A stretch of 45,330 nt of DNA, from positions 1 through 45,330 of IMG/VR virus record IMGVR_UViG_3300035187_001643; one strand, written 5' to 3'. This DNA is from a virus. The position numbers were made by a program, and so were the translations under genes. Numbering within the stretch: position 1 is the first letter of the stretch; each line of letters starts with the position of its first letter. The notes beneath the pieces are model-generated. The model worked only from the letters and a program-made list of their open reading frames with translations. It was not told the origin of the DNA and did no database searches. This document shows, piece by piece, positions 3,238 through 41,495 of the stretch.

Positions 3238-3349
3238 TTGTCGAGTCCTTTCGATTAGAGAGAGCCACACCAACCACGATGCCAAGAACGAACGTCAGGG
3301 CATTGAGACTGAAACCTGCGCAGATGAGCGTGAGTTGTGAAATGGTCAC
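3179..3349 (-). CDS. small single-span membrane protein
   Basis: 56 aa from a GTG at 3349 with GGAGG six bases upstream; the GTG overlaps the preceding TGA (GTGA). One transmembrane segment (LTLICAGFSLNALTFVLGIVV) is followed by a polar tail (NRKDSTNGNGNEGTK). The 3' end overlaps the first 59 bases of the clamp gene. The strong start signal supports it despite the overlap. Function unknown. Confidence 0.6.
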   Translation of the reverse strand: MTISQLTLICAGFSLNALTFVLGIVVGVALSNRKDSTNGNGNEGTKADYWHRAGGK

Positions 3350-5123: not shown

Positions 5124-6394
5124 ACGAGCATTCCTTGCCCTTGTTGTCGCTGTGCGACTGTCATCCCTAACAGCCGCGTTTCGCCCAGCCAGACTTGGCT
5201 TTCACGGGCGTCGATTCCGACACCGTTCCTGCCGTGCTTTACGGCCATAGAAACGGTTGTTCCAGATCCGCTAAACGGATCGAGCACGACACCGCCTGGC
5301 GGGCAAAAACTTTTGATGAAGAACTCTGCCAACCATTCTGGAAACGGGGCTTCGTTTTTTGTGGCATCGCGCCACCCCATGCCGCCACTGCCGACCAGGC
5401 CGCTGATGACGTTGCCGGGGTTGCAAACCTCTGGATCAACGTAGACAGCTTGCTTGCGACTGCCGTCCTTGTTGCGGTTGGTCGCAACCCTTGGCACGTT
5501 TTGCTTTGGCGGCTGGCCCATAGCGGTGTTGTTAGCACCAGATATTCGGCCGTTTTTCGTACCGCAAATGATTGGCTCCCAGTCATTACGCAACCAATCT
5601 GGGCCGCCCGTGCCAGGTATGCCGTTTCTCTGATAAACAACGACCTTTCGCATCTTCACGCCGCGACGATGCAGGTCGGCGTGAAGCAGAAACGGCGTCG
5701 ATGTGTAGGCGAAGTCGTCGGTGTAACCCTCGACAACCCACGCCACCAGCCCTTTGGACACACGCAGGCATTCCATGTAGCAGTCGGTTGCCCATGCCAC
5801 CCAGTCCTCACCGGCAAGGCTGAACCCAAGCTCGCCATATGACCTCTGCGACTCGTAAGGCGGTGAGCAAAAGACCAAGTCGAAGTGGTCGTCGGGGTAT
5901 GGCAACTTGCGGCAGTCGCCGACCTTGAACTCCCACGACACTTCGCCCTTCGTGCCGCTGGCCTCGGCTGCTGTTGGCGCGGCCGCGATGCTGCGGCGTT
6001 GCTTCTCCTCGCGCAGCTGCTTGACGGTCGCTCTGGTCTCCTCAGCCCACGCCAGTAGGTCGGCGGCCTGGTCGTGGTTGGCGACTACGCGATGATGCGA
6101 CCACTCCAAATGGTCGGAACGTTCCGACCTTTCTGGGAAAGCGGCAGCCACCCACGCAGAATCCTTCGCCGTCTGGTACGCGATCCCGAACCGCTCGCAC
6201 GCCTCGGCCAACTTGCCGCGCTCAACGTAGCCCTCGCGATCGCCGGCGTTGAGCCAGTCGCCAATCAGCCACATCAGCCCTTTTTGATAGCGGGCGATCT
6301 CGTGGCCTGCGGCCTCCCACAGTTCAAGCGTCCAGCCGTCGCGAACGACGAGGCCAATTGGCGTGAGTTCATACCGAGTGCTGCACTGTTGCAT
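5120..6394 (-). CDS. DNA methyltransferase (N4/N6 amino type) with helical N-terminal domain
   Basis: 424 aa from the ATG at 6394, preceded by AAAGGA. Residues 155-410 form a beta-class amino-methyltransferase. Motif IV is SPPY at 177-180 and comes before motif I DPFSGSGTT at 372-380; a variable target-recognition stretch lies between. SPPY is the form commonest in N4-cytosine enzymes. Residues 10-135 (WTLELWEAAGHEIARYQKGL, then MWLIGDWLNAGDREG and LEWSHHRVVA) resemble the LmbU-like or ParB-associated helical DNA-binding domain. It probably protects phage DNA or marks sites for the adjacent ParB-like protein. No cognate endonuclease was recognised with confidence. Confidence 0.85.
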   Translation of the reverse strand: MQQCSTRYELTPIGLVVRDGWTLELWEAAGHEIARYQKGLMWLIGDWLNAGDREGYVERGKLAEACERFGIAYQTAKDSAWVAAAFPERSERSDHLEWSHHRVVANHDQAADLLAWAEETRATVKQLREEKQRRSIAAAPTAAEASGTKGEVSWEFKVGDCRKLPYPDDHFDLVFCSPPYESQRSYGELGFSLAGEDWVAWATDCYMECLRVSKGLVAWVVEGYTDDFAYTSTPFLLHADLHRRGVKMRKVVVYQRNGIPGTGGPDWLRNDWEPIICGTKNGRISGANNTAMGQPPKQNVPRVATNRNKDGSRKQAVYVDPEVCNPGNVISGLVGSGGMGWRDATKNEAPFPEWLAEFFIKSFCPPGGVVLDPFSGSGTTVSMAVKHGRNGVGIDARESQVWLGETRLLGMTVAQRQQGQGMLV

Positions 6395-6785
6395 CGCAAT
6401 CCTTTGCGTTTGTCGAAGTGAATGTCTTGGTATCTTGGCAGTACGACACAGACTTGCAGCGTCGCCTGCATGTGGAGCGAAAATCGTTGAACAGGCGGCA
6501 GATACCCCTGCTGTACAGCCGCTCCGCTTCTTGCTCGGTGATCTCCACGCCTTGCAAAAAACGCACGCCGCAGTTTTGTGATGGATCTTCCAAATCACGC
6601 TGGGCTGCCCTGGCAGCGTCAGCCGCCGCGTACCGTATGACGTATTCCCTTTTGTAGGAGTCGCAGATATACGCCATCACGTCAGGCTCTCCACACATGC
6701 CCTTCGTATGCAAACACCACCTAACAAAGTCAGAAAACGACCTTGATCCGGGGTTCCTTGTCGTGTTTTTGCTGTTCTTCTTCAT
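6369..6785 (-). CDS. Cys-rich hypothetical protein
   Basis: 138 aa from the ATG at 6785, which overlaps the ParB-like TGA (ATGA); its end overlaps the methyltransferase start by 26 bases. It holds about nine cysteines spread along the chain, including CRRRCKSVSYC near the end, and a helical middle (AAADAARAAQRDLED). No family recognised. It is flanked by ParB-like and methyltransferase genes in one transcript, so a DNA-related role is a reasonable guess only. Confidence 0.55.
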   Translation of the reverse strand: MKKNSKNTTRNPGSRSFSDFVRWCLHTKGMCGEPDVMAYICDSYKREYVIRYAAADAARAAQRDLEDPSQNCGVRFLQGVEITEQEAERLYSRGICRLFNDFRSTCRRRCKSVSYCQDTKTFTSTNAKDCDATVQHSV

Positions 6786-7816
6786 CACGCCCCCGTCGCT
6801 TTCTTGCGAAGAACAGACACGACTGTAGATCCTCGCTCGCAGACGTTGGCTAGGTAGTCGTCGATCATCTGGCAGCCATTCACGCCGATAGAAGCGTCGC
6901 AAGAGACGTGCGATTCAAGATGCTTGACCAACTGGTCGCACATGAGGCGAGTCTTGTCCACACTCGACATGCCCAACGTTCCTGTCCTTGACGGGGTGTA
7001 TCCACCCGAGTAATCGCTGATCGCTTTCACGACGGCGTCACCGCACTGACGGCGTCGGGCGCAGTTCCTGAGCACGGTCGAAAGCCCCTTCGCCTCGCCG
7101 TGCTTGCATACTGCCTTGACGATCTCGCCAAAGCCTTCACGGTCCACGAATCTGTACGCAGCCGAACACACGTCAATCACCGCTGGGGGCACAAGTTTCC
7201 TGGCCCGGCACTCGTGCTGAAACAGCAGCCGCTCAATGTGCTTCTTGATTGAGTCGGCCTTGCTGATTCCGTGACGATCACAGACGGCGCGGGTGATGGG
7301 TGCATCTGGGTAGCCGTTTGCGAATCCGCCACTCTCGGAAATGCACTCACGGGCGATCTGCTCATGCATCACCTCGCTTGAAACCGCCTTACCGTTTGCG
7401 ACGTTGTCGTGAATCGAAATATCACGAGCCTTCTTCTTGTCCGAATCGTCGGAAACCCACATCACCAAGGCATTGAATGACGTGATGCCGAGTTCCATGA
7501 GGGCGACAAGGCGATGCTTCCCGCCGACGATCTTGTACTTCGGCCTTCCGCCTGTCCTGTAACGGCGATCAGCGGCTAGCAGAACCTCTGGGAATGTGTC
7601 CCCTGCCTGCATCCGCTCCTTGTACTTCTCAATCACCTCACGATCGGCAGTCGCCACATCGAGCCTGGTCTGATACTCGTTGTCGGAAATCTCAACGTCC
7701 GCCAGTTGCACCTCTTGGACCGGCTCCCACTGGCACTGCTTTTCGTCCAGTTCACGACGAATCCTTTCGTCGCTGCGAAACCTCATAAAGCTGTCATCAC
7801 GAAGTTTTTTTGCCAT
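6785..7816 (-). CDS. ParB/Srx-fold protein
   Basis: 343 aa, with AAAGGAG before the ATG at 7816. Residues 35-115 carry the ParB-like core: VEISDNEYQTRLD, then a helix, then KYKIVGGKHRLVALMELGI (94-111), the GxxR box of ParB/Srx proteins. A helical segment follows (ISIHDNVANGKAVSSEVMHE). The C-terminal 180 residues are unassigned. Phage ParB-fold proteins act as DNA-binding partition factors, CTPases, nucleases or methyltransferase partners. It is encoded two genes ahead of the methyltransferase, so a modification or replication role is more likely than partition. Confidence 0.75.
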   Translation of the reverse strand: MAKKLRDDSFMRFRSDERIRRELDEKQCQWEPVQEVQLADVEISDNEYQTRLDVATADREVIEKYKERMQAGDTFPEVLLAADRRYRTGGRPKYKIVGGKHRLVALMELGITSFNALVMWVSDDSDKKKARDISIHDNVANGKAVSSEVMHEQIARECISESGGFANGYPDAPITRAVCDRHGISKADSIKKHIERLLFQHECRARKLVPPAVIDVCSAAYRFVDREGFGEIVKAVCKHGEAKGLSTVLRNCARRRQCGDAVVKAISDYSGGYTPSRTGTLGMSSVDKTRLMCDQLVKHLESHVSCDASIGVNGCQMIDDYLANVCERGSTVVSVLRKKATGA

Positions 7817-8369: not shown

Positions 8370-8597
8370 CTAGCGGGGTATCCGTTCGTTCTGGTCGAGT
8401 TCAAAAATCCGCTGGTTTTCGGCGCGGATCGCCCGTTCGTCGCGCCGCGTGTTGTGCCACGGCCCAACGTCAACGATCCAAGGCGAAGGCAGTTCGTCGT
8501 CAAGCACTTTGCCGATGTCTGTTTCCACCGTGAGCGGCTCGGCAATTCGTTGCCGGTACTGCTCGTCCGTCTCGAAGTCGCGTTTGAAATCAGCCAT
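8370..8597 (-). CDS. small hypothetical protein
   Basis: 75 aa; its ATG lies inside the end of recT (8-base overlap). Charged and helical N-terminus (MADFKRDFETDEQYRQRIAE), ending RIFELDQNERIPR. No domain recognised. Translation is probably coupled to RecT, so a recombination accessory role is possible but unproven. Confidence 0.6.
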   Translation of the reverse strand: MADFKRDFETDEQYRQRIAEPLTVETDIGKVLDDELPSPWIVDVGPWHNTRRDERAIRAENQRIFELDQNERIPR

Positions 8598-9504
8598 GGG
8601 TCGCCACCTCCTCTGAGCCGATCAGGATTTCCGCCTTGCCGTGCAGCAGCTTGACCAGTTCCGCAACGTCCGCGTCCGTGAACACGCCTTCTGTGTGCCG
8701 TGTCGTGATGAGATCCCGCAGCGTGTCGCAGTCCTCGAGCGTCTTGGCTCGGCTCACGGCCAGGCGGGCCTTGGCAACCGGGTCCGTGATCTCAGTCGCC
8801 GCCCGTTTGCTCTTGAGCGTCACAACGCTGGCCGGCTCGGTCGTGATGTCAGGCGTGTGGGTCGGCGGCTCGAACGTCTCGACGTGATGCACTTCCACGC
8901 CGTCCGCCACCGCCTGCGATTTGACGCCGCGTGGACGCACCACGACGGGTTCGCGGGCCGGCTCGTGCGTCGGGTAGTCCTGTGCCTCTTCTGCCGTCAC
9001 AAGGCCACGCAGAACGTCAGGGAAGGCGTCACGCAAGGCGAAGCCTCTGGCCCGCATCTGGAGCATCCGCTTGGGGTACTGCGTCCACGGGCCAGCCTTG
9101 CCCCACAGGCCAGCCTTCTTCGCGTCGGCCACGGAGAAATGAACGGTAGTTGCCTTTTCGTAGCCCTTGCGCTTGGCCTGACACATGGCAACCATGCCGT
9201 CACCTTCGCCAGTCACCTGCTCCCAGACGAATTCGCAGACCGGGCTGGCCTTGCACACCGCTAGGGCCGCGTCACCGAACACGCTGGGCCTGCCGTTGAC
9301 CACGGCGATGGACTGCAGGGCCTGCATCGGGGAAAGCCCGATCTCCGCACCGGCCTGGATCGCCAGCACGCAGCTGGCAGGCTTGCCCCTGAAGTCCTTC
9401 GGGGCGAACTCCGAATCGGCAACCATCTTGCCGAATCGCATAGCGTCGTCGAACGTCTGAAGGGCCAATCCAGTGGCCCGTTGTGTCGAAATCTCCGTGG
9501 TCAT
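8590..9504 (-). CDS. recT: RecT-family single-strand annealing recombinase
   Basis: 304 aa from the ATG at 9504 with AAAGGA upstream. The core at about residues 8-180 matches RecT: FAPKDFRGKPASCVLAIQAG, then AEIGLSPMQALQSIAVVNG with RPSVFGDAALAV, then KRMLQMRARGFALRDAFPDV. RecT-type proteins anneal complementary strands during recombination-dependent replication. The C-terminal 100 residues are Pro/Thr-rich and then helical, probably for partner binding. The usual exonuclease partner (RecE or YqaJ type) is not next to it. RusA, further along the same operon, would resolve the products. Confidence 0.9.
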   Translation of the reverse strand: MTTEISTQRATGLALQTFDDAMRFGKMVADSEFAPKDFRGKPASCVLAIQAGAEIGLSPMQALQSIAVVNGRPSVFGDAALAVCKASPVCEFVWEQVTGEGDGMVAMCQAKRKGYEKATTVHFSVADAKKAGLWGKAGPWTQYPKRMLQMRARGFALRDAFPDVLRGLVTAEEAQDYPTHEPAREPVVVRPRGVKSQAVADGVEVHHVETFEPPTHTPDITTEPASVVTLKSKRAATEITDPVAKARLAVSRAKTLEDCDTLRDLITTRHTEGVFTDADVAELVKLLHGKAEILIGSEEVATHG

Positions 9505-9603
9505 GCCGCGTCCTTTCGTATTGGAAAACCTGCGTTTTTCGTCGCTTTTCTGATATGACCCGCTCGGCGTCCTGCGTTGCGGGTGTGTCGTGCGTCCTTG
9601 CTG

Positions 9604-9652
9604 CCCCGGTTCCACCGGGCTCCTTCCGCCAACTAGCTCCGCTGGCTGGCGG
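9604..9652. other. two hairpins between early genes
   Basis: CCCGG-TTCCA-CCGGG at 9605-9619, and CCGCCA...TGGCGG at 9626-9652 with an inner AGC/GCT pair. They lie just past the stop of the 9661..9897 gene, ahead of recT. With no T-run they are more likely pause, processing or attenuation structures than classical terminators. Confidence 0.4.
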
Positions 9653-9958: not shown

Positions 9959-10007
9959 GCGGGGGGACCAACAAAATGAGGGGAGTCCTTACGGCCGTAC
10001 ACTTTTG

Positions 10008-10063
10008 GAAATAGCTTCGGCGTTAGAAAAGGGCAAGGTAGCGACGGCGTTAGAACCTGTCAA
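10008..10063 (-). promoter_or_regulatory. tandem leftward promoters, each with a TTCTAACGCCG box
   Basis: Upstream promoter: TTGACA (10063-10058), 17 bp, TACCTT (10040-10035). Downstream promoter: TTGCCC (10036-10031), 17 bp, TATTTC (10013-10008). The word TTCTAACGCCG lies inside each spacer, at 10055-10045 and 10028-10018. A spacer position is typical of a repressor operator. The -10 boxes are weak alone, but the repeated layout supports function. The first box also contains the stop codon of the 10050..10202 gene. Confidence 0.5.
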
Positions 10064-10202
10064 CGGGGAAAACCGAAGCCACACTGGCAAGCAATGCCAG
10101 CAGGTCGTGGACAACTCGAGCGGCTGGCGAATCGGTGCCGAGCTCCTGGCCGATGCGTACCAGCGTCAGAGCGGTGATGGCGGCGTTGTAGTGGCGTTTC
10201 AT
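10050..10202 (-). CDS. small hypothetical protein
   Basis: 50 aa from the ATG at 10202, with GGAAGG seven bases upstream; an in-frame codon at 10283 has no such site. Helical: AAITALTLVRIGQELG and VVHDLLALLASVASVFPVDRF. No recognised family. Its TAA stop lies inside the operator-like box of the next promoter. Confidence 0.5.
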   Translation of the reverse strand: MKRHYNAAITALTLVRIGQELGTDSPAARVVHDLLALLASVASVFPVDRF

Positions 10203-10299
10203 CGCAATGCCTTCCGTGGCTGAAGAATCCTGTGTGTAAAGTGCCACCCGTTTCGCAACTGTCGGCAGGCCGGATGGCGCCACCCTTGGGCGGCGTAAA

Positions 10300-10614
10300 T
10301 CACGCAGGCTCTACGGCATCAACTCGCCCGCAACCGCCGCTTTCCGCTGAGTGAACGTGCGTCAGGTTGCACAGGCCAGCAACCTCGGCGGCAACGTCAT
10401 CTTTTGCCCACATGCCACGGCCGCACCAGTCGGTGTAATCGTCGGCCCGCCGCTCGTCATCGGCCTCGCGGGCGGCGAAGCCGGAGTTGTCGAAGTGACT
10501 CTCCTCGACAACGTGCCGGTAGGCACCGTCATCAAACACGATCCACTGCTGCCCGCCGTGAGCGGCGCGGCCGATCACCTTCAAGTCAAAAGCCTTTGCT
10601 GCACTGATGCTCAT
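10300..10614 (-). CDS. small hypothetical protein
   Basis: 104 aa from the ATG at 10614, with AGGAGA seven to eight bases upstream. Begins MSISAAKAFDLKVIGRAAHG and QQWIVFDDGAYRHVVEESHF; the middle is acidic and Arg-rich (READDERRADDYTDW). No recognised domain. Part of the control-region gene cluster. Confidence 0.6.
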   Translation of the reverse strand: MSISAAKAFDLKVIGRAAHGGQQWIVFDDGAYRHVVEESHFDNSGFAAREADDERRADDYTDWCGRGMWAKDDVAAEVAGLCNLTHVHSAESGGCGRVDAVEPA

Positions 10615-10643
10615 CGTTTGTTCTCCTAGTCTCATGGTAGTGA

Positions 10644-10667
10644 CCCGGCGGCGAAGTTGCCGCCGGG
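10644..10667. other. strong intergenic hairpin
   Basis: Perfect 9-bp stem CCCGGCGGC / GCCGCCGGG with loop GAAGTT, between the stop of the 10679..10885 gene and the ribosome site of the 10300..10614 gene. No T-run on the leftward side. Candidate attenuator or RNA-processing site that would lower expression of the distal genes. Confidence 0.5.
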
Positions 10668-10678
10668 CTGGTTAGCGG

Positions 10679-10885
10679 TCAGGACATTGCGGCGTAAAGC
10701 TCATCGCAGAACGCAACGAACTTATCAACGGGCAAGCGGCGCTCAAGGACTGCTAGGGCTGCATCGCTCACGATCCCTGCGTGGCTGGTGTAGTCGCGAG
10801 CCAGTTTGCAGCAGATGTCCACCAGAGCATCGGTCGTCATGGCTTCGAGCTTTGCGTTCAGAGCGTTCTTGATTTCGGCGTTCAT
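10679..10885 (-). CDS. small helical hypothetical protein
   Basis: 68 aa from the ATG at 10885 with GGAGA upstream. All-helical: MNAEIKNALNAKLEAMTTDA, LVDICCKLARDYTSH and VLERRLPVDKFVAFCDEL. I have seen similar short sequences in phages, but with no function. It is the first gene after the strongest promoter of the control region (10937-10964), so it is probably expressed early and under repression. Confidence 0.6.
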   Translation of the reverse strand: MNAEIKNALNAKLEAMTTDALVDICCKLARDYTSHAGIVSDAALAVLERRLPVDKFVAFCDELYAAMS

Positions 10886-10936
10886 CGTTTCGTCTCCGGT
10901 TCGTGCCCCGCGAGTCTCATTCGCTCGCATGGGTGT

Positions 10937-10964
10937 ATTCTAGCTTCGGCGTTAGAACAGTCAA
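10937..10964 (-). promoter_or_regulatory. leftward promoter with operator-like spacer
   Basis: -35 TTGACT (10964-10959), 16-bp spacer, -10 TAGAAT (10942-10937): the best sigma70 match in the window. The spacer contains TTCTAACGCCG (10957-10947), the word repeated in the tandem promoters near 10 kb. A 17-bp stretch (TTCTAACGCCGAAGCTA) is identical here and at 10028-10012. Transcription would begin near 10930. Confidence 0.65.
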
Positions 10965-10988
10965 GGGGTTAGAAAAGATTTTTTCGGA

Positions 10989-11003
10989 CCCGGTTTTTCC
11001 GGG
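10989..11003. terminator. possible weak terminator after the HTH gene
   Basis: CCCGG-TTTTT-CCGGG, 15-20 bases past the stop of the 11024..11260 gene. On the leftward transcript it is followed by an A-run and then TCTTTTCT, not a clean U-tract. It would separate the HTH gene from the promoter at 10964. Confidence 0.35.
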
Positions 11004-11023
11004 GGAAAGCGGGGCTGGGAAGG

Positions 11024-11260
11024 CTAGTTGGCCTTGAACCCGCCTGGAGGCCGTCCGGTTTTCCGCTTGGCCTTGGCCCGCTTGCGGATTTCGGCCTCGT
11101 CAAAGACTCGCGCGGTTGGCGCAGCCAGCCATGACTGAATCCCGCCGTCAGCCGGGTCCAGCAGGGCCAGCTGCCGAATGCGGCCCATACTAACGCCGAG
11201 GATTTTGGCAGCCTCTGCGGTGCCAATCAGCTTTCGACCTTCTGGTAGTGCCACGACCAT
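11024..11260 (-). CDS. MerR/excisionase-type HTH protein (candidate switch regulator)
   Basis: 78 aa. Residues 11-30 (KLIGTAEAAKILGVSMGRIR) are the HTH of the MerR/AlpA/excisionase superfamily. A VFDEAEIRKRAKAKRKTGRP tail is basic, as in DNA-bending proteins. It diverges from the integrase, the classic place for an excisionase or a small repressor. Its promoter (11267-11294) would start transcription at about the ATG itself, and an operator-like box overlaps that promoter, so autoregulation is likely. Ribosome site is poor (TTTGGGGC). Excisionase and repressor roles cannot be told apart from sequence. Confidence 0.7.
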   Translation of the reverse strand: MVVALPEGRKLIGTAEAAKILGVSMGRIRQLALLDPADGGIQSWLAAPTARVFDEAEIRKRAKAKRKTGRPPGGFKAN

Positions 11261-11418: not shown

Positions 11419-11438
11419 TGTACATGAACATGTGTACA
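11419..11438. promoter_or_regulatory. dyad element upstream of the integrase
   Basis: TGTACA-8 bp-TGTACA, with a perfect inner dyad ACATG-AA-CATGT (11422-11433), 24 bases ahead of the integrase ATG. TACACT at 11435-11440 could be its -10 box, although no good -35 is visible. TGTACA also occurs in the early promoter at 9932-9939. Candidate operator controlling integrase. Confidence 0.45.
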
Positions 11439-11461
11439 CTAGTGGAAAAAGGAGGCTGCCG

Positions 11462-12376
11462 ATGGAACCGATGACGCTGCGCGAACTGCTGGAACGCTAC
11501 CGAGACTTGAGAAACCTGAGCGGGAAAACTGCCTCGCTGTATGACCAGCTGCTAGACCGCCTAGGAGCGTTCCTAGGACACGAGCCGACCGTGGCCGACC
11601 TAGATGACTTGGTCATTAGTCGATACCTCCGAGAGCGTGCTACGCACTCGTGGGCGGGCAAGCCGATTCGGCCGGCAAGCGTGCAGAAAGACAAGGTGAT
11701 GCTTGCCGCCGTGTGGAACTACGCCGCCCGCAAGCGTTGGGCGAAAGACTTTCCAGAGTTGCCACGCATCAAGGTGCCGCAATCCATCCCACTGGGCCGG
11801 GCCTACACGTCGCACGATGTGGCCGCCATGATCCGGCAGGCTTTGAAGCGTCGCGGGCAGACAGGCGGGCAGCCCAGCTGCTGGTGGTGGGCCACGCTCC
11901 TCTACATGGGCTACTGCACCGGAGAGCGTGCCGAGGCGCTGAGGGCAGCCAGGTGGCAGGACATCGACCTAGAACGGCGGCGGGTGCTGTTCAGAGGCGA
12001 GACACGCAAGGGATCGACCCGCGACATCGAACGCGACTTCACGCCGGAACTGGCAAGGCTTCTGGCACCGCAGCGGGGGCAACCGGAGGATCTCGTCTGG
12101 GTTTGGGACCGATGCCGCGGGAGCCTCTGGACGAGCCTCAAATTGCTCTGCAGGCAGGCCAACGTGAAATACCGGGGCTTCCACGGGCTCAGGCGTACAC
12201 GGGCGTCCTACGCTGCCCTAGCGGGTGGCACGGCCGCTGCGACTCTGGTGCTCGATCACAGCGATCCGAACCTGCAGCGGGTATATGTCGATCCCACGAT
12301 TTGCCCTACGGAACAGAGCAGCGTGGATTGCCTGCCGGTGCTGGACCTAGACGGGCCGGGAAAGCCGGCGGCTTGA
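11462..12376 (+). CDS. int: tyrosine recombinase / phage integrase
   Basis: 304 aa from the ATG at 11462, with AAAGGAGG six bases upstream; a GTG at 11432 is less likely. The N-terminal SAM-like core-binding domain is at about residues 1-90 (LRELLERYRDLRNLSGKTAS). The catalytic domain has Arg in TGERAEALR, Lys in ETRKGSTRD, His and Arg in HGLRRTRAS, His in LDHSD and the nucleophile Tyr in RVYVD: the complete R-K-H-R-H-Y set. It joins phage and host att sites. It is the first gene of the only rightward unit. The attP core cannot be identified without the host sequence. Confidence 0.95.
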   Translation: MEPMTLRELLERYRDLRNLSGKTASLYDQLLDRLGAFLGHEPTVADLDDLVISRYLRERATHSWAGKPIRPASVQKDKVMLAAVWNYAARKRWAKDFPELPRIKVPQSIPLGRAYTSHDVAAMIRQALKRRGQTGGQPSCWWWATLLYMGYCTGERAEALRAARWQDIDLERRRVLFRGETRKGSTRDIERDFTPELARLLAPQRGQPEDLVWVWDRCRGSLWTSLKLLCRQANVKYRGFHGLRRTRASYAALAGGTAAATLVLDHSDPNLQRVYVDPTICPTEQSSVDCLPVLDLDGPGKPAA

Positions 12377-13714: not shown

Positions 13715-13930
13715 TCACCTCCCGCCGATTGGCCTGGCCGGTGAAGCAGTCGCGGGCGCCACGCCGGGCACGCACTTGCCTGTAGGGCAGTTGGCCGCCT
13801 TGGCTGGAGGCTCAACCGCCATGCTCGCTCGAGCAGCTGCGACCGCAGCGGCCGCGCGTGGGTACTCGTGATCCAGCGTCACCGGATCAGCCGACAGCCA
13901 GACCAGTAGTTGCAGCAGCCATTCAAACAT
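13715..13930 (-). CDS. small membrane or exported protein
   Basis: 71 aa, ATGA-coupled. The hydrophobic N-terminus (MFEWLLQLLVWLSA) could be a signal anchor. An Ala-rich helix follows, then ANCPTGKCVPG, a Cys pair that could form a disulfide outside the cytoplasm. Given its place next to the anchored peptidase it may belong to the lysis module; no family recognised. Confidence 0.55.
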   Translation of the reverse strand: MFEWLLQLLVWLSADPVTLDHEYPRAAAAVAAARASMAVEPPAKAANCPTGKCVPGVAPATASPARPIGGR

Positions 13931-14205
13931 CAGAAAGCCCTTGCGTGGTCAATGGTCGGAAAGCCGTCCGCGCCCACAGCGTGCTGGACCATCCGTCCAT
14001 CAGCGTCTGGCTTCGGCTCGGCAATCAACATGAACCAAAGGGCCGTCTTTGCGGCCTTGGCAATCATCCGCAGAACCGGGCGATCGTTCTGCGGGATCGG
14101 CATCGGGTTGAACGGCGACGGCGTAGGGCCACGGCCGCTGTTGATCCAGTAGCAAAACAGACAGCCAAGGACGAATGCCCAGACGATGCGCTTGTCGAGA
14201 ATCAT
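13930..14205 (-). CDS. single-span membrane protein
   Basis: 91 aa, ATGA-coupled to both neighbours. Residues 6-22 (RIVWAFVLGCLFCYWIN) form a membrane anchor. The rest is a Pro-rich and then polar domain (GRGPTPSPFNPMPIPQND). The shape (short anchor, Pro-rich stem, small outer domain) is like an inner-membrane spanin or an anchored accessory of the peptidase next door. Function inferred from context only. Confidence 0.55.
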   Translation of the reverse strand: MILDKRIVWAFVLGCLFCYWINSGRGPTPSPFNPMPIPQNDRPVLRMIAKAAKTALWFMLIAEPKPDADGRMVQHAVGADGFPTIDHARAF

Positions 14206-15308
14206 TTCCGGTCCTCTGTCGGGTTGGGCGCGAAAAACGCGCCGTGATCGAGGTCGCGATAGGCGAAACCGTCAACGCCTCCGATGACGAAGCTATCGGA
14301 CTGTGCAAGGATGATTTCAGCGTCGTGGCGGGTGATCCAGAAACTGCCGTCGGGCTGATCGGCCGGATGCTTCTGGCCCCCTTGATAGTTGCCCCAGCTG
14401 TTGATAACCAAGACGCCATCACGCGGATTCTTCATCGGCGGTTCGCTGTTCTTGCCGCTGTTGGCAGCGTATTTCACAGCGATGATGCACATGCAATGGC
14501 TCCAGCTGGAGCGACGTGCAACGAATCCATCGGCGTCACGGTCTTGGCCTGCAAAGCCGACGTTGGAACAGATCGGCACGCACATGCCAGACTCTAGTGC
14601 GGCGGTCAGCCCTTCCCACGTTTCGCACAGTGCGACCGCCCGTGCGGTGTGTTTGTTGGCCTCGATTGCCAACGGCTTTGGGCAACCGTAGGCGCCCCAC
14701 TGTTTCGACAGGCTGGTGGAATACGTCGATAGGTCGTGCTCGCCATACTTCTCACGGTAGAGGATTCCGCCAATGCCCTTCTCTCGGCACTGGCCTGACA
14801 CCCAGCGGGCCGCTGCGGCCCCGTAGGAGCCATCACTCCAGCCAGCGAACGTGACCGGCGGCAAACGGGCCGCCGTCCTAGAGCCTGCGTAGAGCGGTTC
14901 AGTGGCCACAAGTTTGGGCGGTGCTGGCAGGCGTCCGGTGGCCCAATCGACCGACTGCCCGATGTAGCTTCCCATGGCCCAGCCAAACGAAACGCACGTG
15001 CCTACTGGGCCTTGGTTCCATGGGCCGAACGGCTTGCCGTAGACGGCTCGGTGCGCCTTGTCGGCGTATCGATACAGGTAGGCGTCTTTGCCCTTCGCAT
15101 TCGCAATCACCTCCGCGCCGGCGTCGCGGAACAGTGGCCGCTTCAGTTCACCAAGAAACTGGCGTGTTGCCTCTGGATCGGGGTTGTAGCCAAAGTTCCC
15201 GCCACTCCCGATGCTGCTCTCAAGCAGCAGCGCCGACCGCAGCCCGACGACGAACGCCAGGACGATCAACGCACAGGCCAGAACATGGTGCCACTCAATT
15301 CGCCGCAT
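14202..15308 (-). CDS. membrane-anchored papain-like (C1) cysteine peptidase
   Basis: 368 aa from the ATG at 15308 (GGGAGGG upstream). Residues 9-27 (VLACALIVLAFVVGLRSAL) are a membrane anchor. The peptidase follows with all papain landmarks: oxyanion Gln99 and nucleophile Cys105 in NQGPVGTCVSFGWAMG, His271 in WSHCMCIIAVKY, Asn303 in VLVINSWGNYQG, then GSFWITRHDAEII. The catalytic part should face the periplasm or envelope. It sits among small membrane and exported proteins where an endolysin is expected, and I recognise no lysozyme or amidase elsewhere. It may therefore open the host envelope; maturation of a surface protein is an alternative. Confidence 0.85.
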   Translation of the reverse strand: MRRIEWHHVLACALIVLAFVVGLRSALLLESSIGSGGNFGYNPDPEATRQFLGELKRPLFRDAGAEVIANAKGKDAYLYRYADKAHRAVYGKPFGPWNQGPVGTCVSFGWAMGSYIGQSVDWATGRLPAPPKLVATEPLYAGSRTAARLPPVTFAGWSDGSYGAAAARWVSGQCREKGIGGILYREKYGEHDLSTYSTSLSKQWGAYGCPKPLAIEANKHTARAVALCETWEGLTAALESGMCVPICSNVGFAGQDRDADGFVARRSSWSHCMCIIAVKYAANSGKNSEPPMKNPRDGVLVINSWGNYQGGQKHPADQPDGSFWITRHDAEIILAQSDSFVIGGVDGFAYRDLDHGAFFAPNPTEDRK

Positions 15309-15744
15309 CAGCCGCAGCCCTCCCGATTTCGCGGAAGGCTGCAACCCATGCCGTGCGCTGCTCAGGGCCGACAGGACCGCCAGAAACGCCAACCTTGGTA
15401 TCTAGGTAGCCTTTGATCGCTTCCCGTACTCGAGGCTGCCGGTCGCCAATCTTTTGGCCACGGCATCGCAGGTCGAACGCTCGCGTCCTGAGATCGTCAA
15501 ACGCCACGCCAGTGGTCAGGTGCGGGCCGCCGGCACGCTCGGAATCGTAGGCGAGTTCGTCAGCCAATTCTGAAAACATCCCGGCCGTAACGGAGGCATC
15601 AGCCGCTGCAGTCGGCCCGGCAAACTTGCCCGCTAACGCGATGTCACCAGCAGGCGGCGCAGGCGTCGGCGTGGACGGCTTCGCCATGGCCGACACGATT
15701 GCGGCAACGGCTAGAGCGGATGCAACAGCTAGGCGGATATTCAT
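15295..15744 (-). CDS. exported hypothetical protein
   Basis: 149 aa, ATGA-coupled. Residues 1-21 (MNIRLAVASALAVAAIVSAM, then A) form a signal peptide. A Pro/Thr linker follows, then a helical domain with SELADELAYDSERAGGPHLT and RTRAFDLRCRGQKIGDRQP. It overlaps the peptidase start by 14 bases, so the two are translated together and probably act in the same compartment, perhaps as inhibitor, chaperone or spanin-like partner. No family recognised. Confidence 0.6.
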   Translation of the reverse strand: MNIRLAVASALAVAAIVSAMAKPSTPTPAPPAGDIALAGKFAGPTAAADASVTAGMFSELADELAYDSERAGGPHLTTGVAFDDLRTRAFDLRCRGQKIGDRQPRVREAIKGYLDTKVGVSGGPVGPEQRTAWVAAFREIGRAAADAAN

Positions 15745-15992
15745 TTGTCGGAACCTGCCACCAGGGCCAGCGTCAGAGCATCAATCGACTTTTTCTCTGC
15801 GTCTCCCAACTGGTCCGTTTGCAGCAGTCGCAGGCGGACAGTGGCCAGTTGGGCCATGGCGATTTGGTAGGAAACCTTGGCCGGCACGTGCGGATCAGAC
15901 GCCAGCGCAGAATCCGGCAGCGTCACGGCGCTTGGCTTCGGCCAGAGCATCACGGCCACGGCGGATGCGATTAGGGCAACAGTCAAAATCAT
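15741..15992 (-). CDS. small anchored or exported protein
   Basis: 83 aa, ATGA-coupled at both ends. The hydrophobic N-terminus (MILTVALIASAVAVMLW) is a signal or anchor. A helical region follows (VSYQIAMAQLATVRLRLLQT) and an acidic C-terminus. The design resembles spanin inner or outer subunits, but no lipobox is present. Member of the probable lysis module. Confidence 0.55.
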   Translation of the reverse strand: MILTVALIASAVAVMLWPKPSAVTLPDSALASDPHVPAKVSYQIAMAQLATVRLRLLQTDQLGDAEKKSIDALTLALVAGSDK

Positions 15993-16360
15993 GCGGCGAT
16001 CCTTACGAGCGGAAGAAGTGATTCAATGGCACCAGCCGCGGCCAGCAGCACCAGTTGCCGCACAGCCGGGCGGACGATCAGCCACAGCGGGTAAGCAAGC
16101 ATCGGCACGCACTTGTCGGCCAAGGCGTCAAACAACATTGCCACGGCGTCCAATGCCCACGCCTTTTTTTGCGCTCCATCGGCGGGAACGGAGTCGAGGG
16201 CGGCAATGGAGATCCGCAGCAGTGCAATGGCAAGTTCGCCAAACTCGGCAACCGTCAGCCCGTCACGGGCTTTCATGCGGGCGATTGATACGAACGCTCT
16301 AACTTTGTCGGAGAACGCCACCAGATCATTGGCGGCAGTCATCGGCGCAGACGAAATCAC
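15989..16360 (-). CDS. holin-like or membrane-associated protein
   Basis: 123 aa from a GTG at 16360 that overlaps the previous TGA (GTGA), with GGGAG seven bases upstream. An internal ATG lies at 16342. The middle is amphipathic; the C-terminal third is strongly hydrophobic (YPLWLIVRPAVRQLVLLAAA, then GAIESLLPLVRIAA). It heads the anchored-peptidase cluster, so a holin or pinholin role is reasonable. No family was matched. Confidence 0.5.
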   Translation of the reverse strand: MISSAPMTAANDLVAFSDKVRAFVSIARMKARDGLTVAEFGELAIALLRISIAALDSVPADGAQKKAWALDAVAMLFDALADKCVPMLAYPLWLIVRPAVRQLVLLAAAGAIESLLPLVRIAA

Positions 16361-16857
16361 GTTTTGACTCCCACGATGTAAGCGGCAACGCTTGCGGCAG
16401 CGGCGCCGTTGTTGGTGATGGATAGGATTTTGTTGGTGGTAGTCGTGGCCCATCCTGCCTTGGGTGCCGTCGCGTAAAGCACGCCTGCCGGCGGCAGCAC
16501 AAGCGTGTCGGCCGCAAAGTTCGTCCAGCGGTTGCTGACGCTCGTTGCGATCGACAGCCCGGCAGTGCTCGAGCGGTTTTCAATGAGCACCATCTTGACG
16601 CTGGCAAGCGACAGATTCCCTGTGCCGCCAAAGACTTTCAGCGGCAACGCCCGCAAATCAATGGAGTATTGCGCCGACGCATTGATTGAAAACACGTCCT
16701 TCCAAAAACCATTCGCTTGGTCGTTGCCAGTGCCGTTTGCCAACGCGAGGGCCAGCAACGCCGTGACAGAGTCGGTGACCGTGGTGGTGGTCAGATCGTC
16801 CGACCATGACGGCACGACACGCAGTGCGCTGGTGAGTGAAAATGACTGCGGCATCAC
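16357..16857 (-). CDS. virion structural protein, paralogue of next gene
   Basis: 166 aa, beta-rich and rich in Thr/Ala/Ser. Landmarks: SINASAQYSIDLRALPLKVF, ASVKMVLIENRSSTAGLSIA and the C-terminal NKILSITNNGAAAASVAAYI. The order and spacing follow the 16854..17369 protein (RQLRLIKIVNNETAAGQTLL and NSIVRIANTTEDPITYSLYL). Likely a minor tail or receptor-binding beta-sandwich. It shares four bases with the upstream gene. Confidence 0.55.
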   Translation of the reverse strand: MMPQSFSLTSALRVVPSWSDDLTTTTVTDSVTALLALALANGTGNDQANGFWKDVFSINASAQYSIDLRALPLKVFGGTGNLSLASVKMVLIENRSSTAGLSIATSVSNRWTNFAADTLVLPPAGVLYATAPKAGWATTTTNKILSITNNGAAAASVAAYIVGVKT

Positions 16858-17369
16858 TCGGCCTCCGTGGAAGTGCCAAGGAGGTAGAGCGAATAAGTGA
16901 TCGGGTCTTCTGTCGTGTTGGCGATCCGCACGATGCTGTTGTCTTCAGTGACAACCCAGCTGTCGGTGTTGTTGATGGCGAACCACTCGGAGCCAGGGCC
17001 AACCGCAGCGGCATAAACAGCCGTGGGCCTGCCGGGATCAACTCCAACCAGCAGCGTCTGCCCGGCGGCCGTCTCGTTGTTGACGATCTTGATGAGCCGC
17101 AGCTGCCGGAAGACGAACGGCACGGCCACGCCCAACGCCGTCTGCTCTAGGTCCAGCAAATCAAAGGCTTCAATCGTCTCGCCTGCGATCGTCCGCTGGT
17201 CCGCAAACACCAGATCTGCCTGCCCGGCACCGGAGCCGTCCGCAATCGTGTAGTTGCCAAGGATCGTCTTGCGGCTGACAACGCTGCCGACTTCCTGCGA
17301 GTCCGTGCGCGTCCACGAAAGCGTGGTGCGCAGCGTTGCTGCCAGAACGTCCGTGACTGAGTCAGCCAT
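16854..17369 (-). CDS. virion structural protein, paralogue of previous gene
   Basis: 171 aa, beta-rich. It begins MADSVTDVLAATLRTTLSW and has a central AFDLLDLEQTALGVAVPFVF, a pattern I associate with phage accessory tail or adhesion proteins. Its C-terminal two-thirds aligns by eye with the 16357..16857 product. It probably arose by duplication. Exact location in the virion unknown. Confidence 0.55.
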   Translation of the reverse strand: MADSVTDVLAATLRTTLSWTRTDSQEVGSVVSRKTILGNYTIADGSGAGQADLVFADQRTIAGETIEAFDLLDLEQTALGVAVPFVFRQLRLIKIVNNETAAGQTLLVGVDPGRPTAVYAAAVGPGSEWFAINNTDSWVVTEDNSIVRIANTTEDPITYSLYLLGTSTEAE

Positions 17370-19552: not shown

Positions 19553-19770
19553 GCGATGACGCCTTGTATGCCGGAGGTTTCCCAGCCACGTTCCTTGGCA
19601 GCCTCAATAATTGCGAAGCAATAGGCACGTTTCTGATGCATCGCCGGATTGAAGGCGTTGCGCACGATCTCCAACTCCGATTGGGCATCTGGGGGCAGGC
19701 GATCAAACCACGTGCGAAAGCCGGGCCTGCCATTCGCCGCACGAGACATCACGTCATCCAGCAGGCTCAT
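19528..19770 (-). CDS. small hypothetical protein
   Basis: 80 aa, ATGA-coupled to the HExxH gene. Helical: MSLLDDVMSRAANGRPGFRT, LPPDAQSELEIVRNAFN, then FAIIEAAKERGW and GIQGVIAWL. The N-terminal DVMSRAANGRPG is reminiscent of small phage adaptor proteins. No function assigned. Confidence 0.55.
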   Translation of the reverse strand: MSLLDDVMSRAANGRPGFRTWFDRLPPDAQSELEIVRNAFNPAMHQKRAYCFAIIEAAKERGWETSGIQGVIAWLNARPS

Positions 19771-20048
19771 CAGTCCTCCTGGTCGTCAGGCCGGCGGAAT
19801 CCTTCCGCGTCAATCACGCCTGAAAGCGTCTCGGCAAACTCTGCCACTGCGTCTTCATGCAGATCCGGCCACCGGGCGTGAATCAGTTCGTGAATCAGCG
19901 TATCAAGCAGGTCAACGCCAACCAACTTGTCGGCAATGCGGATGGTCTTGGTCGTGTAGTTGCATTGGCCGTCATCGTGACGCAGCCGCACGCGCTCGAC
20001 CTTCCAGCGTTGATCGCCCACGTAGACGGTGCGTCGCTTCCGTGCCAT
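19770..20048 (-). CDS. SprT-like zinc metallopeptidase-type protein
   Basis: 92 aa. Contains LIHELIHARWPDLHEDAVAE, an HExxH helix with a downstream acidic residue, as in minimal SprT/WLM-type gluzincins. A short basic N-terminal strand (MARKRRTVYVGDQRWKVERV) precedes it. Small phage HExxH proteins of this type are common but uncharacterised; proteolysis of DNA-bound or virion proteins is the usual suggestion. The gene ends seven bases before the stop of the large tail protein's frame of reference, as part of the late operon. Confidence 0.65.
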   Translation of the reverse strand: MARKRRTVYVGDQRWKVERVRLRHDDGQCNYTTKTIRIADKLVGVDLLDTLIHELIHARWPDLHEDAVAEFAETLSGVIDAEGFRRPDDQED

Positions 20049-20055
20049 GCGCCGG

Positions 20056-23000
20056 CTAGCTCCGCTTCAGCTTTACGCTGTACACACCATCCACGTCACC
20101 AAGCGGCATCGTGATTTCATCGCCGTTGGCTAGAGCCACTTCTTGGTCAGGCGTCAGCGTGTGCGTGCAGACGTAATCGTTGAGCACACGCTCGGTTACC
20201 GTGCGTTGATCTATGCTGCCACCACGAGTGCAATACAGCACAGCAGAGACAGGCGGCATTTTCCACGTTTCTTCCTCTTCGTCGTAGTAGAAATTCGTTG
20301 GAGTATCACCACCCAGACCAGAGGTGACGCCTTCCATTACTTCTGTAAGCCACTCGTCAAACGCAACGCGCGGGCGTTCTTCGTTCACATAGACGAACTG
20401 CGTAGGCTGCGGCTCGTTGTCTGCGTATGTTGTTTCTGCCTTTATGCACGCCCGTAAAGACAATGTCAGGACAAGTGGACCAAGCGTAGTCGTCTTCAAT
20501 GCTGGGAATGTTTTTGCCTGCCTAGACGCCGAAAGCATTGCTTGCACGCCTTCCAGCGAATACCGGGCATCTGTGACACTTCGCAAAGCCTTTGCAAGCG
20601 GCGTTCCCCCAGAAGGCTCCATGTCATTTACTTCAAACCGCAATCCCTCTTTTGCTTCCGCCAGGGTCGTTTCGCTATTGCCAAACGTTCGCTCAACTGT
20701 TTCGTGCACCACGCGAAACTGAGGGTTGGAATTAATCCAATACGGAGAACTCGTTACGGCTTCGCCGTCAATAAAATAAGCAGTCTGCGTGGCCATTGGC
20801 TGCGCGTTGATTTCTGTTCCGCCGCCCTCAACTACTCCAGACCACATATTTTGAGCCAGCTCATAGCCTTGAAATTCCGTTCCTAGTGAAATTATGGGAG
20901 CGTTTTCTAATGCCATAATGCGCGGGAATAAATCACTAACGACGTGGTTGAAATCCCCAGGCGGCTGGCCAGACCAGGCAAGTCCTGTAAAGTTTTCAAG
21001 CGGCTCACCAAAAACAACTTTTCCCTGCATGTAATATCCGCCAACATCTTCGGGAGGGATTAGGTTGTTTCCGTACTCATCAAGCAGAACTATGCGGGCG
21101 GAAAACCCAGTGATGTCGGTGTTGCACGTAATGGCTGAACTATGCCACTGCAATTCCGTTGGGCCAGCACATGGAGGCACAAGGGCCGGCGGGCTCGGAT
21201 CAATCGTTGTGCCAAGCCCCCAGTATGAGAATGGCCCAGTCGCTCCAGTGACGGGAGCACGTGGAATGTAGCCTTCGTAATTAACGGCTTTTGCGACTAG
21301 ACCAAAGTCCGTAAAAAATTCTTGCGGAAGAACGACAGCAGGAGTATTGATTCCTCCGAAGCTAATAGCGTCTGGTGCTGATTCTGCCGCAATCCCGATG
21401 TCGCCTGTTGATGTTATCGTCAGATTGTTTTGCGTCATGTCAATCGACGTGCTTGCGCCAATACTGGCGGCGCGGCCCACGACAAATCCTCTCAGCACGG
21501 AACTTGTGTCGATCAGCCTAGGCCAGCCATCTACGTCTGCCATCAGCCAGCTGGTGCGGGCAACGATCACGGAAGGCTCAGGGTCGTAAGGATTTCCGTT
21601 GACATCCAGAGGGTTTCCGTTGCCTATTTCGACAAAAGGATCAGGCCAGAGCGAAACGGATAGTGAGTACCGCTTGCCGTCATCATCCGAAACAAGAACT
21701 TTCCGAAACAGTTCTGTTAGTCGCGTTGATGACTTCGGGAAATCCTTTTTTGTTGGATAGTGCAGTTCCTCGAAAGTCTCTGCCGTCATCACGGTGCCGG
21801 CTGGGTCATATTCCAAAAAGCAGAACGTTGCCGACTGCTGCACTCCAAGTGGCACGCTGATTTGCCATTTCATTGTCGTTGCGTCGGCTTGCTCGATTGT
21901 GCAGCCAGCAGCGAGCACGCCGTTGCAATACAGTCGCACCTGCGAGTTTTCTACCGTCTCTGGATCAACTGGCCTATCAAACGTCAGTTTCAGTGAACTG
22001 ATCCGCTCTGCCTGAGAGCGAGGGCGGCAATACTCCCTAGTCTCCAACACAGGCTGCTGCAATTTGGGTATCGCCCCAAAATATGTGTGGCTGCTTGGGC
22101 TGCCCTCAACGATGTTGGCCCTTTGGTCAACCGCGTGCACGGTCCACGTTTGAGAAAACATCTGGTCTGGCGCGTTGTGTGCCAAGTCTCTTACGTCCGC
22201 AGCACCGACTGGCCTGATTGAGAACGTCCCTGCAACATTAGGGTCTAGGACATTGACAACTGGAAACGTTTCCATTTGCGTGAACAATGGACGCGTCATC
22301 ACGCCGTCAGGCGATTCATCGTTCATGGCTTGGAAAAGCGGTTTTGTAGACATGACGGCTGTTTGCCCTAATCCAGCAGTGATACTGGGAAGGTTGTTGG
22401 AGCCATAGTCGCCAACGAATACGTCATCCAACGGCGTGAAACCGACAACAGGCTTTTTGCGGTCAATGACGAAACTGAAAAAGTCTTTGTTTGTTGGAAG
22501 TGCAGTGCTTGGGTATCCGTAAGAGCCAGTCGGCGTCACGGTCACCAAATAAGACCCTTCCTCCTCAGTGGCATCAAACAGCTGCTGCCTAGTTGGTGCC
22601 TGCGTTGGCGGCAGCATTTCGCTGCCGTCTTTTGTGATGCGATAGAGCATCCCGGTTCCGGTGTCTTGGTTGGCAGTGTTTCCACGATAAATGCCTACTA
22701 GATGCCCTTTGATGTACGGGCTGACGGTTCCGGTTGGGCCGGTCACCTCGTATTCAATTTGCGTCTGCCTTGCAAATCCAAGATGCGAAGGACGAAACGC
22801 CACTGCTGTGACAAATGCCGAAGACGGCAATTCCTCGTCCTCGGGCTGACCATCGCAAACGCAGGAGATCGACACAGGGTTAGGCCAGTACGGGCGACGA
22901 CTAGAGCCTGGAGGCAAAAGCAATCGTTGTTCCGAATTGAATTCAAGCGTGTGAGCGAATGTATATCCCGACGTGATGGGGGGAGTTTGGCTTGCGCCTC

Positions 23001-23901
23001 CTAGCTGAGGATCTTGAATATTCCATTTTTCTTGCCCTGTTCCGTTAAACATTTCACGCCAGCACAGAAGATCCTTCAATCCTTCAAGCGGCCTTTCCGT
23101 GAATTCGGAAAGTGAAGTGCCATCTGGTGAATACGAAAGATCTAGCACAGACGGAACGCTCGTGGCACTTAGCAAGTTATTGCCGACAAGCGTTCTAGAT
23201 TGCAGTTGCCGATTGATGACGGCTGACGCGTTATTTATTGGGCCTGTTGGTGCTGTAACGCCCGTGCTGCCAGTTGGGCCGCTAGGAGCGATTCCTCCTC
23301 CGGTTGGTCCGCTGACGGCTGGTCCGCTGACGGTGCTTCCAGTAGTTGTTCCTGGCGTGCCACCCGTGGCACCGTCCAGCCTTGATGTACCCCACGTCGG
23401 ATCGCTGTTTGCCCCTGTCGGACCAGTCACGACAAGCGGGCCGGTCGGAGTAATTGGCCCTGTTGGGCCAGAAACTTTGTAGACGTAAACGTCGTTATTA
23501 AACGACTCGTCTAGCTCATCGCCTTCCAACTCATAATTCAGAGATGCAGACTGACCGTACAGCGAAGCCGTAATCGATCCAGACATTGCCTGTATGTCAT
23601 CTGGGTTGTCTGTTTGTGAAAGGTGCGGAAATAGAAACGTTCCAATAGACAGCCCTGGCCCATCTAACTTCGTGAACGTAACAGACGAGCCTGCGAAAGA
23701 AAGACCGCCATATTCGGAAGTCCACCCAGGCTGGCCTCGCATTTCAATAGGGCCGTAGCCGTCAACAACAACAACGGTGCCAGAAATATTGTCGGCCCAC
23801 GTTACTAGCTTGGTTGTTGTTGGGTCAAAGGTTCCTGGGCCGATCGGATCAAATCCTCGAGTCAGCGGAAGCCCAGCGCATACGCAGCACGTGCACGTCA
23901 C
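20056..23901 (-). CDS. large tail-tip/adhesin protein with collagen-like and Ig-like parts
   Basis: 1281 aa from a GTG at 23901 (GTGA overlap). The N-terminus is Cys-rich (MTCTCCVCAG). Residues about 140-240 hold Gly-Pro-Thr collagen-like triplets. About 620-715 resemble an SbsA/Big_5 Ig-like domain (SLKLTFDRPVDPETVENSQV). The C-terminal part has DARYSLEGVQAMLSASRQAK. Its place after tape measure and tail-tip genes, and its size, suggest a host-recognition protein at the tail end. The DNA is clearly less GC-rich than neighbouring genes (26 of 60 bases in 21301-21360), which suggests separate acquisition. Confidence 0.7.
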   Translation of the reverse strand: MTCTCCVCAGLPLTRGFDPIGPGTFDPTTTKLVTWADNISGTVVVVDGYGPIEMRGQPGWTSEYGGLSFAGSSVTFTKLDGPGLSIGTFLFPHLSQTDNPDDIQAMSGSITASLYGQSASLNYELEGDELDESFNNDVYVYKVSGPTGPITPTGPLVVTGPTGANSDPTWGTSRLDGATGGTPGTTTGSTVSGPAVSGPTGGGIAPSGPTGSTGVTAPTGPINNASAVINRQLQSRTLVGNNLLSATSVPSVLDLSYSPDGTSLSEFTERPLEGLKDLLCWREMFNGTGQEKWNIQDPQLGGASQTPPITSGYTFAHTLEFNSEQRLLLPPGSSRRPYWPNPVSISCVCDGQPEDEELPSSAFVTAVAFRPSHLGFARQTQIEYEVTGPTGTVSPYIKGHLVGIYRGNTANQDTGTGMLYRITKDGSEMLPPTQAPTRQQLFDATEEEGSYLVTVTPTGSYGYPSTALPTNKDFFSFVIDRKKPVVGFTPLDDVFVGDYGSNNLPSITAGLGQTAVMSTKPLFQAMNDESPDGVMTRPLFTQMETFPVVNVLDPNVAGTFSIRPVGAADVRDLAHNAPDQMFSQTWTVHAVDQRANIVEGSPSSHTYFGAIPKLQQPVLETREYCRPRSQAERISSLKLTFDRPVDPETVENSQVRLYCNGVLAAGCTIEQADATTMKWQISVPLGVQQSATFCFLEYDPAGTVMTAETFEELHYPTKKDFPKSSTRLTELFRKVLVSDDDGKRYSLSVSLWPDPFVEIGNGNPLDVNGNPYDPEPSVIVARTSWLMADVDGWPRLIDTSSVLRGFVVGRAASIGASTSIDMTQNNLTITSTGDIGIAAESAPDAISFGGINTPAVVLPQEFFTDFGLVAKAVNYEGYIPRAPVTGATGPFSYWGLGTTIDPSPPALVPPCAGPTELQWHSSAITCNTDITGFSARIVLLDEYGNNLIPPEDVGGYYMQGKVVFGEPLENFTGLAWSGQPPGDFNHVVSDLFPRIMALENAPIISLGTEFQGYELAQNMWSGVVEGGGTEINAQPMATQTAYFIDGEAVTSSPYWINSNPQFRVVHETVERTFGNSETTLAEAKEGLRFEVNDMEPSGGTPLAKALRSVTDARYSLEGVQAMLSASRQAKTFPALKTTTLGPLVLTLSLRACIKAETTYADNEPQPTQFVYVNEERPRVAFDEWLTEVMEGVTSGLGGDTPTNFYYDEEEETWKMPPVSAVLYCTRGGSIDQRTVTERVLNDYVCTHTLTPDQEVALANGDEITMPLGDVDGVYSVKLKRS

Positions 23902-41435: not shown

Positions 41436-41495
41436 TCAGCCAAACTCCCAGACGGTGTCGATGTCGTCCGCATCGTGATCGCCAATCCAGTTCAT
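41436..41495 (-). CDS. 19-codon mini-ORF between portal and capsid
   Basis: MNWIGDHDADDIDTVWEFG. The ATG at 41495 overlaps the portal TGA (ATGA) and has GGAGG at the ideal distance. The TGA at 41438-41436 is followed directly by the capsid ATG (TGAATG). It may be a translational relay that feeds ribosomes from portal to capsid, or a genuine acidic micropeptide (five Asp, one Glu). Confidence 0.5.
   Translation of the reverse strand: MNWIGDHDADDIDTVWEFG

Follow-up and report, generated by a model that had tools for sequence, protein, structure and literature searches.

The window analysed here is a linear viral record, possibly incomplete, of 45,330 bases; it encodes a membrane-anchored cysteine peptidase of the papain type. 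We infer that this protein is the catalytic component of the lysis (envelope-opening) cassette of planctomycete phages, and likewise infer its substrate; the probability of this reading is put at roughly 0.55. It is the best single reading because the position of the gene, its membrane-protein neighbours, their co-conservation and the failure to recognise an alternative enzyme all agree.

Nearly all genes of the window lie on the minus strand (table 1). After the tape measure gene come fibre-like proteins, an exonuclease and then small overlapping genes that end near an integrase-like gene. The peptidase gene is part of this final stretch downstream of the tail genes, a place in which viruses of this kind commonly carry their lysis genes. 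In the run X-Y-Z-A-B-peptidase-C-D, consecutive genes overlap by 1 to 14 nt, the overlap between gene B and the peptidase gene being 14 nt. Z-B-peptidase is retained in four planctomycete genomes (L085, L100, L101 and L102), where it lies upstream of a terminase-like gene; for ORF 12843 of Blastopirellula marina this label comes from reading the sequence by eye, with no profile result.

Table 1. Features of the window and residues of the predicted peptidase site.
Feature	Position	Strand	Basis or occurrence
Terminase	43195-45294		relatives annotated as terminase large subunit
Portal	41492-42937		sequence read by eye, no profile result
Head protease/major head protein	39600-41435		phrog_4523, E 5.8e-67
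Tape measure	25327-27951		phrog_4704, E 1.3e-63
Gene Z, ~123 aa, hydrophobic stretches; holin candidate by position only	15989-16360	minus	67/72 loci with room upstream
Gene A, 83 aa, N-terminal hydrophobic segment	15741-15992	minus	14/85 loci, close relatives only
Gene B, 149 aa, N-terminal anchor/signal and helical-bundle domain	15295-15744	minus	71/72 loci with room upstream
C1A-like (papain-type) cysteine peptidase, 368 aa, N-terminal anchor	14202-15308	minus	ATG at 15308
Hydrophobic anchor, residues 9-27	15228-15284	minus	KD19 = 2.48
Gln99, oxyanion-hole position	15012-15014	minus	conservation
Cys105, nucleophile position	14994-14996	minus	conservation
His271, general base position	14496-14498	minus	conservation
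Asn303 of NSWG	14400-14402	minus	Gln in 3/98 and 2/81, Arg in 1/81
Gene C, 91 aa, N-terminal hydrophobic segment, conserved C-terminal H(A/G)xGW-like end	13930-14205	minus	65/71 loci with room downstream
Gene D, 71 aa, CPTGKC motif	13715-13930	minus	plain similarity in 21/71 loci
Integrase-like gene	11432-12376	plus	PF00589, E 1.5e-6; just past the cassette, on the opposite strand

The peptidase ORF is not due to chance, since 127 stretches in viral contigs encode close relatives and comparison with one of them (L002, 367 codons) gives 15, 13 and 75 differences at codon positions 1, 2 and 3. The residues Q99, C105, H271, N303 and S304-W305 are invariant in the alignment of 28 members (28/28). 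In a larger alignment of 98 members, Gln and Cys are present in all, His in 97, and Asn in 93 of the 96 with a letter at that position, the other three carrying Gln. The only row without His belongs to L056, a copy broken by internal stops (positions 9974-11098, one contig), which reflects either an assembly error or decay. Among 81 more distant viral members, Gln, Cys and His are each found in 81 and Asn in 78, so that Asn303 is substituted in six sequences over both sets.

The window protein has one strong hydrophobic segment (anchor KD 2.48-2.49); the anchor of L082 reaches 1.67. An apparent loss of the anchor in 16 of the 81 viral members of the 98-member set was set aside as an artefact of start choice for the 10 loci re-checked: upstream in-frame starts give back a hydrophobic N-terminus, and L075 ends at the contig edge. 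Only 4 of 33 distant members have an anchor. At the level of sequence, the peptidase is confirmed as a real gene with a predicted anchor and a complete Gln-Cys-His-Asn site. The first-pass annotation had proposed precisely this, a papain-like site behind a single membrane anchor, and both elements are upheld by conservation, hydropathy and the predicted fold.

An AlphaFold model built from the 28 aligned sequences has a mean pLDDT of 88 and a pTM of 0.84. Foldseek returned xylellain with E 1.7e-8, among 173 PDB matches at E<=0.001. Xylellain is also the best structural match (Z 22.1, 2.9 A over 239 residues, 17% identity); (pro)cathepsins are among the top PDB matches and Cwp84 of Clostridioides difficile (4ci7) has a Z of 17.6. 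Sequence searches of the PDB, with the single sequence and with the alignment, gave nothing significant (best E 0.59 and 0.26), so only the fold search placed the peptidase. It is recognised by none of the Pfam, PHROG and NCBIfam profiles; PF00112 (Peptidase_C1) found no match at E<=10 in 10 viral records, and the peptidase itself matches 0 Pfam families. We therefore file it as C1A-like and not under PF00112, because fold and site match and the PF00112 profile does not. By the modelled fold of its catalytic domain and the order Gln-Cys-His-Asn, it is a papain-type C1A (clan CA) peptidase of putative activity. A Pfam scan of the 28 members gave one match to Peptidase_C39_2 (E 0.0046) and three to CHASE2, taken as noise or remote. 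Several alignments of the model to zymogens start at residue 34-36, with the preceding stretch at the place of the pro-segment, which suggests that the N-terminal segment may be inhibitory.

Synteny of the block was counted over 85 loci, the denominators in table 1 (except for gene A, counted over all 85) being the loci with room on the side concerned; the loci of the close set are the best 80 of the 127 stretches. The conserved core is Z-B-peptidase-C, present in nearly all relatives with room. Gene Z has no match in Pfam or PHROG, and hence no support from holin profiles. The same is true of most candidate holins at other loci; upstream of the peptidase in the distant relative L161 there is a weak holin-profile match (phrog_6116, E 0.0012; Phage_holin_10, E 0.0085, below the Pfam cut-off). 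The model of protein B has a pLDDT of 83. The idea that B might be an inhibitor of the cathepsin-propeptide type gained no support, as no significant fold match was obtained (best E 2.2; the highest Z, 7.6, came from a designed protein). A check for spanins found lipobox-like ends, by eye, in B of L103, L104, L106, L108 and L109, and Rz matches at sub-threshold level only. The N-terminus of D is hydrophobic by eye and falls under the hydropathy cut-off. A motif scan of 83 loci detected D-type proteins, most of them Cys-rich, at 33 and a WCxxC protein at 8, and thioredoxin domains downstream of the peptidase were confirmed in five loci (L084, L085, L109, L166 and L169).

Small membrane proteins crowd the peptidase gene beyond chance. 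For the window clade, 12 non-redundant loci were compared: among their same-strand ORFs of <=200 aa, a TM-like segment is found in 13 of the 25 neighbours within 1.5 kb, compared with 1 of the 31 at 1.5-6 kb (p 2.9e-5). The corresponding values for 33 non-redundant divergent loci are 40/89 and 14/172 (p 1.8e-11). Because these ORFs were chosen by a mechanical rule, they include some that are not genes, which adds noise to both distance classes. In the window, the hydropathy of C, A, B and Z agrees with the first-pass annotation, which described small exported or membrane proteins surrounding the peptidase. In more distant prophages (L103, L106, L108-L110 and L112), small hydrophobic proteins of other kinds, or membrane segments fused to a neighbour, occupy the place of B or the one upstream of it. 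Some divergent contigs have, upstream of B, a family of small hydrophobic proteins that is holin-like and has no profile match (L166 2370-2576, L169 4983-5189, L174 1376-1585 and L175 5195-5461). In large phages, a single-TM protein of 109-147 aa, which the Z profile does not match, recurs downstream of the peptidase (L116 7940-8317, L135 7325-7768, L137 9209-9571, L150 7633-8031, L155 7081-7410 and L157 7087-7440).

Six-frame searches for seven endolysin families, with controls matched in known genomes each time, gave no match in any record. Amidase_2 was found in 0 of 24 records, the whole B. marina genome included, and PF00959, PF01464, PF13539, PF00877, PF01551 and PF05257 each in 0 of 23 viral records (the window and 22 related contigs); this absence concerns the seven families across contigs that may all be fragments. 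Phage_lysozyme (PF00959) was likewise missing from 30 large divergent contigs of up to 221 kb. Pfam and/or PHROGs searches covering 36 of the 53 listed window ORFs gave no endolysin match. The earlier statement that no lysozyme, amidase or endopeptidase of peptidoglycan type was recognised in the window stands, and the conventional endolysin that might have been concealed among the hypothetical genes was sought by profile, across these seven families and 36 ORFs, and not found.

For lysis, we propose the following scheme. The peptidase would be exported by its own signal anchor and held at the inner membrane, its cleft restrained by residues ~34-70, by protein B or by both. Late in infection, Z would permeabilize the membrane and the peptidase would be freed or activated; in other phages, the permeabilizing would fall to a small membrane protein that is unrelated to Z and encoded in its place. 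The product of D, Cys-rich or thioredoxin-like, may keep or make the active-site Cys reduced, a redox role suggested by the fact that both thioredoxin and Cys-rich forms adjoin a cysteine enzyme. The freed enzyme would cut envelope proteins, with the stem peptides of peptidoglycan as a less likely target, and the cell would open. Endolysins divide into holin-dependent and SAR types, and the distant members of the family, most of which lack the anchor yet lie beside small membrane proteins, mirror this split.

Serine proteases of other families occur near the peptidase gene: trypsin-like proteases in five of the loci examined (L150, L158, L182, L183 and L191) and subtilases in another five (L134-L136, L147 and L148). 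These neighbours favour a protein substrate, though in few loci; as proof, their proximity was rejected, being limited to only 10 of the loci examined. Subtilase and trypsin-like genes lie within the same clusters as the peptidase (L135 8124-9176, L150 8028-8942 and L191 4360-5238).

CHAP and NlpC/P60 enzymes cut stem peptides or cross-links, and the peptidase could be a papain-fold peptidoglycan hydrolase that does the same in the planctomycete wall. We consider this unlikely. Among the BFVD fold matches are phage proteins with the names N-acetylmuramidase and peptidoglycan-binding-like, together with weak matches to mycobacteriophage Lysin A. However, the nearest folds are C1A proteases and not CHAP or NlpC, profile searches recognised no peptidoglycan-hydrolase or cell-wall-binding domain in the peptidase, and some relatives have the trypsin- or subtilase-type proteases nearby. 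The presence of peptidoglycan in planctomycetes, stated in the available portion of PMC5394234, speaks for such a hydrolase and counts against lysis by protein cutting.

It is also improbable that the peptidase is a non-lytic protease of the inner membrane or periplasm, one that clips a surface receptor or channel against superinfection or processes exported phage proteins. The anchor and the exported partners would suit this role, as would the presence of the gene in apparently degraded prophage remnants (L084 and L100) and its place among other gene classes in large phages, where it lies near ORFs read by eye as ThyX and ribonucleotide reductase. Against it stand the location of the gene, which closes the run of late genes in the window and in four prophages lies upstream of a terminase-like gene, and the fact that no other lysis enzyme was recognised in the search for seven endolysin families. 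A virion or tail-associated protease used for entry is very improbable: the gene does lie downstream of the tail genes and of two phrog_22694 proteins, but the window clade has the N-terminal membrane anchor and co-conserved membrane proteins.

Several observations count against the lysis reading itself, namely the lack of a holin profile for Z, the different location of the gene in large phages, two contigs with two copies each (L142/L144 and L138/L149, among the matches listed), the substitution of Asn303 in six sequences and a Mucilaginibacter homologue that stands alone, with no phage gene recognised nearby. In addition, one planctomycete phage is reported as chronic and released without lysis in the part of PMC10945688 available.

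A profile of divergent members matched at least 600 stretches in viral contigs, at least 540 of which encode relatives; the divergent loci studied are the best 80 of these. By tblastn, the 50,697 deposited phage records have no match for the peptidases of the window, L105 and L109, nor do deposited phages for Z of L065 or plasmid records for the L085 peptidase; positive controls of the deposited-record searches worked (terminase, 123 records; exonuclease, 1766). The search of phage databases proposed by the first-pass annotation thus finds the family in hundreds of uncultivated viral contigs and not in the deposited phage records.

A scan of genomes gave five loci, in two Planctomycetota MAGs, another bacterial MAG, B. 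marina DSM 3645 and Mucilaginibacter. The peptidase is matched in 12 of 392 Planctomycetota genomes versus 1 of 387 Bacteroidota genomes, the sole Bacteroidota match being the genome chosen as centre; with the two centre genomes left out, the values are 11/391 and 0/386 (p 0.0009). The window virus thus probably infects planctomycete bacteria, the host group already assumed in the first-pass annotation. Terminase, portal and capsid genes like those of the window are found near the peptidase gene in L108 and L110, and portal/capsid genes in L106.

Textbook lysis of bacteria by tailed phages depends on peptidoglycan hydrolases. In SAR endolysins (P1 Lyz, phage 21 R), an N-terminal signal anchor precedes a periplasmic hydrolase, and small membrane genes lie alongside. 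The window peptidase has both the anchor and such neighbours; it differs in being a papain-type protease and not a lysozyme, and in its strongly hydrophobic anchor, whereas the SAR anchor is weak and leaves the membrane. The cluster of small membrane or exported genes around an enzyme is also common to the holin-endolysin-spanin cassette. Pseudomurein endoisopeptidases (Pei) of methanogen viruses are cysteine peptidases opening a wall that ordinary lysozymes cannot; the window peptidase is likewise a cysteine peptidase and is proposed here to open the cell, but Pei differ in family and substrate and act on archaeal hosts. Cwp84 shares the C1A fold and is tied to a bacterial surface protein layer; unlike the window peptidase, it is a host S-layer enzyme and not phage-encoded. 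Xylellain has the same fold and catalytic order Q-C-H-N, to which the window peptidase, at 17% identity, adds the membrane anchor and the co-conserved gene block.

Xylellain-type C1A peptidases are reported as acquired by Myoviridae and Siphoviridae in the accessible sections of PMC10380794, which do not mention lysis for them. Pei is mentioned in a 2025 survey of viral lytic proteins (PMC12596118), the available main text of which contains no 'papain', 'cysteine' or 'planctomycet'. In the literature covered, with subscription papers and preprints outside its scope, neither a C1A lysis enzyme nor a Z-B-peptidase-C block is reported. Short bacterial C1A peptidases in tailed phages are thus known (PMC10380794, in those sections); the block, the host group and the likely role were not found described.

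A wider claim, which we hold only tentatively and at less than even odds, is that bacterial viruses of a widespread class rely on a papain-type protease to open their hosts, the enzyme attacking envelope proteins and not peptidoglycan, with the phage-encoded Cys-rich or thioredoxin partner as reductant and trypsin- or subtilisin-like proteases sometimes helping. If a protease does serve in lysis, some bacterial envelopes would rely on protein for load-bearing or barrier function, the long-argued planctomycete cell wall would gain a genetic handle, and the failure to recognise an endolysin in these phages would be accounted for. The gene block may also be used as a marker for planctomycete phages, the deposited phage records having been searched without finding a relative of the peptidase.

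Other features of the window and of related loci were recorded. Immediately upstream of the cassette are two adjacent phrog_22694 paralogues (16357-16857, E 3.6e-12; 16854-17369, E 6.3e-16), a pair found in only some relatives. An opposite-strand relative of the integrase-like gene follows the cassette in many close loci. Downstream of the cassette, the MAG locus L084 (3546-11800) has eight similar membrane-protein-like ORFs of ~330 aa with a common C-terminal PYFGRR-like motif. The window encodes a DNA polymerase III beta clamp (2128-3285, three Pfam domains), accompanied by RecT (8590-9615), a DNA methylase (5120-6598) and a weak ParB-like protein (6785-7816). Within the structural gene run there is a protein (31079-33721) that is glycosyltransferase-like by eye and has TPR matches, with neighbours that look metabolic. 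Several fibre-like proteins (20056-23901, 35148-35897 and 37366-38427) carry collagen-like GPTG/TGPTG repeats, and a small SprT-like protein with an HELIH motif is encoded at 19770-20048 (PF10263, E 5.4e-5, below cut-off).
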